DNA from: Bacillota bacterium
GTDB taxonomy: Bacteria; Bacillota; Limnochordia; Darwinibacteriales; Darwinibacteriaceae
Reading direction: 5' to 3'
Assembly: GCA_012521465.1 (NCBI GenBank)
Contig: JAAYMI010000161.1
Coordinates: 1 to 36,377 of the forward strand
Length of the DNA stretch: 36,377 bases
Under the pieces are notes generated by a model. The model was not told the origin of the DNA, made no database searches, and saw only the letters and a list, made by a program, of their open reading frames with translations. The position numbers and the translations under genes are program-made. This document shows, piece after piece, positions 10,412-19,692 of this stretch. Position 1 is the stretch's first letter; each line of letters begins with the position of its first letter.

Positions 10412-11140
10412 TTATTCCATCTTCTTGATCTCCCGGCGGAGTTTTTTCAGGATTTTCTTTTCTAGACGGGATATGTAGGATTGACTGATACCCAACAGGT
10501 CAGCAACCTCACGCTGCGTCCGTTCGGTGCCGCTGTTTAGTCCGAAGCGGAGCTCCATAATCTTCTTCTCTCGACCAGTCAGGCGCTCGAGGGCTGCCTC
10601 CAGCAGTGCTTTGTCAACTTCTTCCTCGATGTACTTCACCACATCGCTTTCAGATCCCACCACATCAGCCAGCACCAGTTCATTGCCATCCCAATCGGTG
10701 TTGAGGGGTTCATCGAATGATACCTCTGCCTTTAGTTTACTTGTGCGGCGCAGGTACATGAGAATCTCGTTCTCGATACAGCGACTGGCGTATGTAGCCA
10801 GCTTTATGTTTTTCGAGGGGTCGAAAGTGTTGACTGCCTTAATGAGGCCGATTGTCCCGATAGATACAAGGTCCTCGATTAGGATGCCGGTGTTCTCGAA
10901 CTTGCGGGCAATGTAGACAACCAGCCGCAAGTTTCGTTCGATCAAAGGGGTCTTGACAGAATCGTCCCCCTCGCTGAGCCGAGCTAGAAGGAGCTGTTCT
11001 TCTTCGCTGCTCAAGGGCGGCGGGAGCACCTCGCTGCTGCCCACATAATGCACCTTAGGAACAAGGCCGATGCGGCGCAGAAGGGCAACGAGCCAAAGCC
11101 GGACCTGGATTCTAAACCTTAGGGTTGTGAGACGCCGCAT
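10412..11140 (-). CDS. sigE: RNA polymerase sporulation sigma factor SigE (pro-sigma-E)
   Basis: Mother-cell sigma factor, made as an inactive membrane-associated precursor. The 242-residue protein begins with a basic, amphipathic pro-sequence (about residues 1-30) ahead of the conserved [10 protein letters not shown] segment, as in pro-sigma-E of Bacillus (239 residues); SpoIIGA removes the pro-sequence after septation. Region 2 contains the [14 protein letters not shown] and [13 protein letters not shown] motifs; region 4 has a helix-turn-helix around [17 protein letters not shown]. The start lies inside the end of spoIIGA (29-base overlap), so the pair forms a coupled operon. Unlike in Bacillus, the operon runs opposite to ftsZ and sigG. 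Confidence 0.96.
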
Positions 11141-17949: not shown

Positions 17950-18843
17950 TTGAGGAGTCAAGACAGGTTAGTGCGGGGCATCATCGGGGGAGACAAAGCA
18001 CGAGCCTTCGTGCTGCGTACGACGGACGTGGTCAATGAAGCTCAGGCATGTCATCACACGTACCCTGTGGCTACGGCCGCACTGGGAAGAACCCTCACGA
18101 TTGCGCTGGTTCTTGGTGCTATGCTTAAAGGGGACGAGTCCGTTACCGTGCAGGTGCGGGGCAGTGGTATTCTAAACGGTATTGTGGCCGTGGCGGACTC
18201 CAAGGGACATGTGCGGGGCTATGTTGGCAATCCCCAGGCCCATCTGCCATTGACGGCCAATAACAAACTGGCTGTTGGGGAAGCAGTTGGACGGGGATTG
18301 TTGTTTGTCATGCGGGACTTGGGACTGAAGGAGAAGTACCAAGGATCGGTTCCCATTCAGACTGGTGAAATCGGAGATGACTTCGCCTATTATTTTGCTC
18401 TTTCGGAACAAACCCCATCGGTGGTAAGCCTCGGAGTGTTGGTTAATCCCGATAACTCGGTCCGGTCTGCAGGAGGATTGGTGGTCCAACTGCTCCCCGG
18501 TGGCGAGTCGGATGATGCGTTCGTGGCTGAATTGGAACGGATCGCAGCAGATTTACCCCCCATGAGCCAGGTGTTCGTTGATGATGTTCAACCGGGGCAG
18601 GTGCTCCAGAAGTTCTTCGGGCATCTCGGCGTAAAGCTGATTTCAGAAGTGCCGGTGAGCTACAGCTGTGATTGCTCGCGGGAGCGCTTTCAGCGCGGCC
18701 TTGTGGCCTTGGGCACAGCAGAACTGGAGGACCTAATTGCCGAGGGAGAACCTGTAGAAACGGTGTGCCGCTTTTGCAGTAAGCGATATCTGTTCCCCTT
18801 GGCGGAGGTAAAAGATCTGCTCGCAGAACTCCGCAGATCCTAG
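17950..18843 (+). CDS. hslO: Redox-regulated chaperone Hsp33 (HslO)
   Basis: Cytoplasmic holdase activated by oxidants. The 297-residue length is standard. The C-terminal zinc switch is intact: C240-D-C242 and C273-R-F-C276. The N-terminal domain carries the GGDKARAF and HTYPVATAALGR motifs typical of the family. Start is TTG 17950 with GGGAGG upstream (17938-17943). It lies between the RodZ-like gene and spoIIP. The 3' flank holds the candidate spoIIP promoter and no clear terminator, so read-through into spoIIP is possible. Confidence 0.95.
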   Translation: MRSQDRLVRGIIGGDKARAFVLRTTDVVNEAQACHHTYPVATAALGRTLTIALVLGAMLKGDESVTVQVRGSGILNGIVAVADSKGHVRGYVGNPQAHLPLTANNKLAVGEAVGRGLLFVMRDLGLKEKYQGSVPIQTGEIGDDFAYYFALSEQTPSVVSLGVLVNPDNSVRSAGGLVVQLLPGGESDDAFVAELERIAADLPPMSQVFVDDVQPGQVLQKFFGHLGVKLISEVPVSYSCDCSRERFQRGLVALGTAELEDLIAEGEPVETVCRFCSKRYLFPLAEVKDLLAELRRS

Positions 18844-18856
18844 CGGGGCTAAATCG

Positions 18857-18887
18857 GGAATAAATGGTACTACCTTCCGCATATATT
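18857..18887 (+). promoter_or_regulatory. Candidate sigma-E promoter for spoIIP
   Basis: GGAATAAA (18857-18864) and CATATATT (18880-18887) with a 15-base spacer fit the sigma-E pattern (-35 GkmATAnn, -10 CATAnnnT). A start near 18894 would fall at the ribosome site, leaving a leader of about 16 bases before GTG 18910. spoIIP is sigma-E-dependent in Bacillus. Assigned by eye. Confidence 0.45.
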
Positions 18888-18899
18888 TGTGTCGGAAGG
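18873..18899 (+). promoter_or_regulatory. Inverted repeat covering the spoIIP ribosome site
   Basis: CCTTCCG (18873-18879) is perfectly complementary to CGGAAGG (18893-18899) across a 13-base loop that contains the candidate -10 box. The right arm is part of the ribosome site GGAAGGGGG (18894-18902). Transcripts starting upstream would fold and hide the site; transcripts from the sigma-E promoter would lack the left arm. Confidence 0.5.
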
Positions 18900-18909
18900 G
18901 GGAATCGAT

Positions 18910-19692
18910 GTGGCCAGAATGCGAAGAACGGAGAGAAACGGCCCTGGTCTGTTGTTTATTCTCGTTACTCTGGTTGTGGTCGCGGTGGTGGGAGCACGTT
19001 TTTTGGGATTCTATCCTCAATCCGGTGAAGACGACCTGGGCCCACCTCAGCAGGACGCGGCCCATGAGGAAGCCCCGCCAGAAGGGCCTGTTGTGGACCC
19101 TACACCGAAAGTGCTGGTGTTCCACAGCCACGCATCGGAGAACTACCATCCTAATGAAAGCCACACCACTGGACAAATTCCCGGCGATGTGGTGGCGGTG
19201 GGCAAAGCCTTAGTCGATAAACTGAGCGCTTTAGGGATAACGGCGCTGCACGACACCACAATTCATGACAAACCGCGCTACAGTGAAGCATTCATCAATT
19301 CCGATCGGATGGTCGAAGCCGTTCTCAAAGAACATCCGGAGATCCAAATCGTGCTGGACATCCACCGCGACGGGCTCCAGGATAAACCGGAAAACTATAC
19401 CCGTGCCGAAGTGCAGGGCATGCCGGTAGCGAAGATCCTATTCGTGGTTGGGGATAAGGACAATACAAAGGTAGAGGAAAACCTGCAGTTTGCTCAGAGT
19501 ATGAGCGATGCGCTAGAGGCCAAGTATCCGGGAGTCAGCCGAGGAGTGCGGGTGTTCAAGTCTGATTACAGCGGCGAGCTTCATCCCAACAGCGTGATGG
19601 TGTTGGTGGGAGACTGGCGGGGGAATACACTCGAAGAAGCGATCCGCAGCGCAGAGTTACTTGCAGAAGTAATAGTTTCGCTTATAAAGTAG
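18910..19692 (+). CDS. spoIIP: Stage II sporulation protein P (SpoIIP)
   Basis: Septal peptidoglycan amidase/endopeptidase that thins the sporulation septum and drives engulfment with SpoIID and SpoIIM. GTG 18910 is chosen because GGAAGGGGG lies seven bases upstream and the earlier in-frame GTG 18889 would lie next to the -10 box of the candidate promoter. The 260-residue product has an N-terminal membrane anchor (about 12-33), a Pro/acidic linker (about 38-66), and a SpoIIP catalytic domain with H72 in the HSHASENYHP motif and H152 in DIHRDG. It is clearly shorter than Bacillus SpoIIP (about 400 residues), mostly in the linker. A strong hairpin follows the stop. Confidence 0.92.
   Translation: MARMRRTERNGPGLLFILVTLVVVAVVGARFLGFYPQSGEDDLGPPQQDAAHEEAPPEGPVVDPTPKVLVFHSHASENYHPNESHTTGQIPGDVVAVGKALVDKLSALGITALHDTTIHDKPRYSEAFINSDRMVEAVLKEHPEIQIVLDIHRDGLQDKPENYTRAEVQGMPVAKILFVVGDKDNTKVEENLQFAQSMSDALEAKYPGVSRGVRVFKSDYSGELHPNSVMVLVGDWRGNTLEEAIRSAELLAEVIVSLIK

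Follow-up and report, generated by a model that had tools for sequence, protein, structure and literature searches.

A predicted fold-back mask over the spoIIP ribosome site, encoded within a sigma-E-type promoter and conserved across a class of Bacillota

In the 36,377-nt contig analysed here (the window), the sporulation gene spoIIP follows the housekeeping gene hslO on the same strand (Table 1). The first-pass annotation had remarked that hslO has no clear terminator, and no terminator-like site was found between the end of hslO (18843) and the spoIIP promoter. The arrangement raises the question of how spoIIP could be kept from being translated on RNA running on from its neighbour. The product scored 185.6 bits against PF07454 (cut-off 24.4) and is consequently a member of the SpoIIP family; four further SpoIIP-like proteins (29-40% identity) were seen on contigs C96, C173, C87 and C41 of the same genome (G000). 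The annotation had also described a 7-bp inverted repeat around the -10 box, with the spoIIP SD sequence as its right arm. This repeat proved exact: the arms CCTTCCG and CGGAAGG lie 13 nt apart, with the -10 box GCATATATT (18879-18887) between them.

Table 1. Positions of the genes, predicted promoter elements and hairpin arms at the spoIIP locus of the window.
Feature	Position	Strand	Basis and remarks
hslO (Hsp33)	17950..18843	+	Pfam HSP33, 1e-90; co-directional, upstream of spoIIP; candidate source of read-through RNA
Predicted sigma-E promoter, -35 GAATAAA	18858..18864	+	20-21 nt between the ATA of the -35 and that of the -10 in almost all of the 64 orthologues
Masking hairpin (predicted), left arm CCTTCCG	18873..18879	+	exact inverted repeat; within promoter spacer; kept or covarying among relatives
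-10 element CATATATT	18880..18887	+	sequence; conserved in the class; also supplies the hairpin's loop and inner stem
Predicted transcription start	18893, +/- ~2 nt	+	from promoter geometry, 12 nt past the -10 ATA
Hairpin, right arm CGGAAGG	18893..18899	+	exact inverted repeat; contains the spoIIP SD sequence
spoIIP SD GGAAGGGGG	18894..18902	+	anti-SD duplex -10.1 kcal/mol; 7 nt before GTG 18910
spoIIP, GTG start, 260 aa	18910..19692	+	PF07454 SpoIIP, 1.7e-54; start conserved among orthologues

Only one -35/-10 pair fits upstream of spoIIP, and this pair is conserved. We take the promoter to be of the sigma-E type from its resemblance to the B. subtilis consensus, an assignment also backed by the promoter geometry conserved among orthologues; the genes for sigma-E and sigma-G are both present in the window. 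The sigma-E promoter elements of C. difficile are reported to be very similar to those of B. subtilis (PMC3789822). A genome search with the exact pattern GAATAN{14,17}GCATANANT returned no second site, and exact-motif searching was therefore of no help in finding further members. The explanation that we favour, with a probability of approximately 0.83, is that a fold-back mask would make spoIIP translatable only from its own predicted sigma-E promoter. RNA polymerase that reads through from the housekeeping gene upstream (hslO in the window) would produce an RNA carrying both arms; there the left arm, which the promoter spacer encodes, would pair with the SD sequence and exclude ribosomes. 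Sigma-E polymerase would begin at approximately 18893, past the left arm, and its RNA would have a leader of some 17 nt in which the SD sequence is free.

Taken alone, the 7-bp repeat is unremarkable and could have arisen by chance, as 56 perfect 7-bp inverted repeats with short loops occur in the window compared to 46 ± 10 in shuffles. In the folded RNA the stem is lengthened by CAUA/UGUG with one bulge, resulting in 11 pairs plus two outer pairs. The segment 18870-18905 folds at -16.1 kcal/mol versus -6.6 in shuffles (z -4.25, for a stretch picked after the fact), and the SD sequence is free in a folded RNA beginning at 18893. For the window's own spoIIP the effect is modest: the SD opening cost is 7.1 kcal/mol, and when the upstream sequence was dinucleotide-shuffled, 6 of 100 versions hid the SD sequence equally well. 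An Rfam 15 covariance-model scan of 18600-19100 gave no match at E <= 1.

The two transcript forms were compared by folding 64 leaders of spoIIP orthologues gathered from the genus, family, order and class, the cost of opening the 6-nt SD core being determined in the long RNA, in the promoter RNA and in shuffles. The median cost was 11.1 kcal/mol in the read-through RNA, 1.2 kcal/mol in the predicted-promoter RNA and 4.4 kcal/mol in the shuffles. These values, together with the promoter geometry of the 64 orthologues and the covariation described below, support the earlier proposal that the SD sequence is hidden in read-through RNA and free in sigma-E transcripts. It had further been reasoned that uncompensated loss of the left arm in close relatives would speak against a mask; the opposite was seen in the family and the order, the arm being either kept or changed together with the SD sequence. 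Masking ranked within the top 5% for 53/64 orthologues, compared to 2/30 for spoIVA, 4/30 for sigG, 2/30 for murC, 4/29 for spoIIIAA and 3/25 for window genes in the same test, although the orthologues share ancestry and cannot be counted as separate events, and the shuffles behind the counts ignore relatedness. Outside the class 3/16 spoIIP homologues look masked, with unsure start choices. No matches to spoIIP, spoIVA or sigG were obtained at the thresholds used in the same-order genomes G023-G025 and G036, which probably represent lineages that have lost sporulation. All class genomes examined were assemblies, many of them metagenomic, and the mask is described here from their sequences.

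The main partner of the SD sequence was located in the promoter spacer in 48/64 orthologues and upstream of the -35 element in 14/64 (most of family f9, L073, L089 and L090). It thus lay upstream of the -10 element in 62/64, which implies that only read-through RNA can fold in this manner. No clear mask is seen in the two exceptions, L071 and L084, and the mask is weak in some others (L068, L080, L088, L090).

The gene preceding spoIIP was co-directional wherever it could be read and ended near the promoter, its stop codon in many cases falling within the -35 element. By sequence resemblance these genes are HslO, UPF0182-like or RodZ-like (a family scan was run for HslO of the window). In the sister genomes (L006, L010 and L013) a UPF0182-like gene directly precedes spoIIP, with its stop codon inside the -35 element, while hslO takes this place in the window (18843-18860); the upstream gene has thus been exchanged or lost and the promoter-hairpin kept. 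A terminator-like site upstream of the -35 element was found at 1/63 spoIIP loci versus 11/16 spoIIIAA loci with a placeable promoter, a contrast which suggests that mask and terminator may be alternatives.

A covariance model built from the spoIIP leaders only gave weak matches in relatives within the promoter-SD region of further sporulation genes: at D-Ala-D-Ala carboxypeptidase, VanW-family, spoIIIAA and cwlD-like genes, as well as at yabP-like and tepA-like genes (named by sequence resemblance). Since pairing itself contributes to the score of such a model, masking was also tested without preselection on approximately 1.2 Mb from five relatives, comprising 960 genes with an SD sequence. 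A strong mask was observed in 14/30 genes with a perfect spore-type -10 box versus 41/930 of the others (odds ratio 19, p = 5.5e-11), and in 10/26 when spoIIP was left out (p = 2e-7). Ten control motifs showed no association with masking. The threshold and the -10 patterns were fixed after the first of the samples behind these totals; the second and third, which are cleaner tests, gave p = 1.3e-5 and 0.014, both with spoIIP included. In a sample from the window's own genome (196 genes) 0/3 perfect -10 genes passed the strict threshold (a cost of 8 or more to open the SD sequence, matched by no more than 1 of 40 shuffles), spoIIP falling just short at 7.1. In all 14 masked promoter genes the SD partner was located upstream of the -10 box. 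Their stems are unrelated in sequence, the only shared point being complementarity to their own SD sequence; a ClpP-like TepA relative, for example, carries stems of approximately 18-21 bp that differ between G001, G009 and G004. Masks were also seen at murA and dpaA, and at spoVK, yunB, cwlD and the genes for a carboxypeptidase and a YkuD protein, whose -10 boxes are less perfect.

Sigma-F/G-type sequences (CATACTA) occur among these -10 boxes. The device is consequently specific neither to mother-cell genes nor, given the other upstream genes, to hslO. On balance we lean towards promoter-embedded fold-back SD masks serving in the class as a general insulating device for the sporulation genes of either compartment that follow a housekeeping gene with no terminator in between. 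Regulon-wide use on all sigma-E genes was rejected, as spoIVA and spoIIIAA are mostly unmasked.

Further masks were noted in passing. In sigG of the window (12256, + strand) the SD sequence GGGGGGAT pairs with a segment of that gene's promoter spacer, AGATCCCC, at an opening cost of 12.7 versus approximately 7 in shuffles (0-1 of 40), a feature that is not general in the class. The sigE gene (10412-11140) lies on the strand opposite sigG, unlike the tandem arrangement in B. subtilis. The window's murA (7233, + strand) is strongly masked (15.5 vs 5.9, 0/40) with a -10-like box, GCATACTA, between the arms, and its orthologues in G001 and G004 are likewise masked. An IS30-type-transposase-like ORF at G001:C1:529813 (+ strand; L279-L281) also has a strongly masked SD sequence (14.9 vs 4.4, 0/40), recalling the fold-back protection known for IS10.

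The nature of the spoIIP hairpin was further assessed from how its stem varies. Between families the sequence has been rewritten with retention of pairing, as in CCCCCTTCGCCC/GGGGCGAAGGGGG (L067), CCCTTCGGCAT/ATGCCGAAGGG (L077), CCTCCCTTCCGC/GCGGAAGGGAGG (L095) and CCCTCTC/GAGAGGG (L096). When 24 class members were aligned on sequence alone, 82.6% of the cells were paired, versus 54-61% for slid structures, and 15 cells had changed on both sides of the stem. The covariation score of 0.302 versus 0.203 was reached by 0/500 shuffles, which keep relatedness in. A within-family alignment displayed less variation, in the same direction. Such compensatory changes are those expected of a hairpin selected as RNA, and the comparison of relatives argues strongly for a hairpin beyond chance. 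Accidental complementarity between a purine-rich SD sequence and a nearby pyrimidine-rich stretch, compatible as it is with a repeat that is ordinary by itself, is contradicted at the class level by conservation, covariation, the controls and the promoter association, and is barely credible. It is very unlikely that the repeat is instead a DNA operator for a sporulation regulator, overlapping the -10 box: the dyad is centred on that box, a usual position for a repressor site, but the arm spacing, mostly 13-16 nt, reaches approximately 45 nt in family f9, whose left arm lies upstream of the -35 element. The variable loop length and the tolerated G-U pairs point to RNA rather than an operator, as do the rewriting of the sequence with SD pairing kept and the unrelated stems of the other genes.

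A hairpin between two genes could also slow polymerase, and a transcription terminator or attenuator halting the read-through RNA might look similar. This is nevertheless highly improbable, since the stem is followed by GGGAATCG and the start codon rather than a U-run, no intrinsic terminator is recognised at the site, and the SD sequence is always part of the arm. Alternatively, transcription by sigma-E could start further upstream, so that the hairpin is present in the sigma-E RNA as well and damps or times translation, like the small hairpin at the ribosome-binding site in the B. subtilis sigG leader (PMC5942855). The predicted start does rest on promoter geometry. Still, the sole fitting -35/-10 pair is conserved, and the SD partner precedes the -10 element in nearly all spoIIP orthologues and in every other masked promoter gene, making a leader hairpin clearly unlikely. 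The left arm shifts in position yet keeps to the upstream side of the predicted start site, which fits the read-through mask and not a leader hairpin.

The nearest precedent for a mask of this type is in phage T4, where early RNA of gene e hides the lysozyme start and late-promoter RNA is made without the 5' arm, with an approximately 100-fold difference (PMC3014915). As predicted at spoIIP, the ribosome site is held in a hairpin of the long RNA, a promoter upstream of it yields a short RNA without the 5' arm, and the product is a cell-wall hydrolase; sequence evidence extends to related phages. By sequence, spoIIP shows the same traits, with the SD in the 3' arm of a stable long-RNA hairpin and a predicted promoter RNA without the 5' arm. 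The T4 mask, however, is a phage device that has been measured, whereas the class-conserved mask at bacterial sporulation promoters is predicted from genome comparison. The ribosome sites of I-TevI and similar T4 genes are likewise sequestered, in early and middle RNA, and I-TevI levels rise when the 5' portion of the structure nearest the late promoter is deleted (PMC3014915), although I-TevI is a phage homing endonuclease. PMC5942855 (citing Sun 1991 and Masuda 1988) relates a proposal that a hairpin silences spoIIGA-sigE read-through into B. subtilis sigG. As described there, the hairpin would cover the ribosome site in read-through RNA and be impossible in own-promoter RNA, but it concerns a single sigma-F/G gene and a stem of 20+ bp, compared to sigma-E-type spoIIP and several genes with unrelated stems here. 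The two work alike without being the same element, differing in gene and promoter type. Searches of open papers turned up no earlier description of such a mask, either at spoIIP or across many sporulation genes; the mechanism is already known from T4 lysozyme and B. subtilis sigG, while its conservation at spoIIP throughout the class and its recurrence on several genes appear to be new.

Restriction of spoIIP to the mother cell, as suggested in the first-pass annotation, would follow from such a mask. Strict confinement to the mother cell is not universal, however, since both sigma-F and sigma-E transcribe spoIIP in B. subtilis and C. difficile (PMC3789822). The usual account of sporulation is one of compartment control via sigma factors. 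In packed genomes, sporulation promoters lie right behind housekeeping genes that are active, and the SpoIIP protein is an enzyme that cuts peptidoglycan. A left arm hidden in the promoter spacer would silence the read-through RNA without any cost to the real promoter. Coverage of such genes in RNA-seq is not necessarily a sign of protein, and the recurrence of the mask over the class and on several genes makes the insulation of sporulation genes from read-through directly testable.
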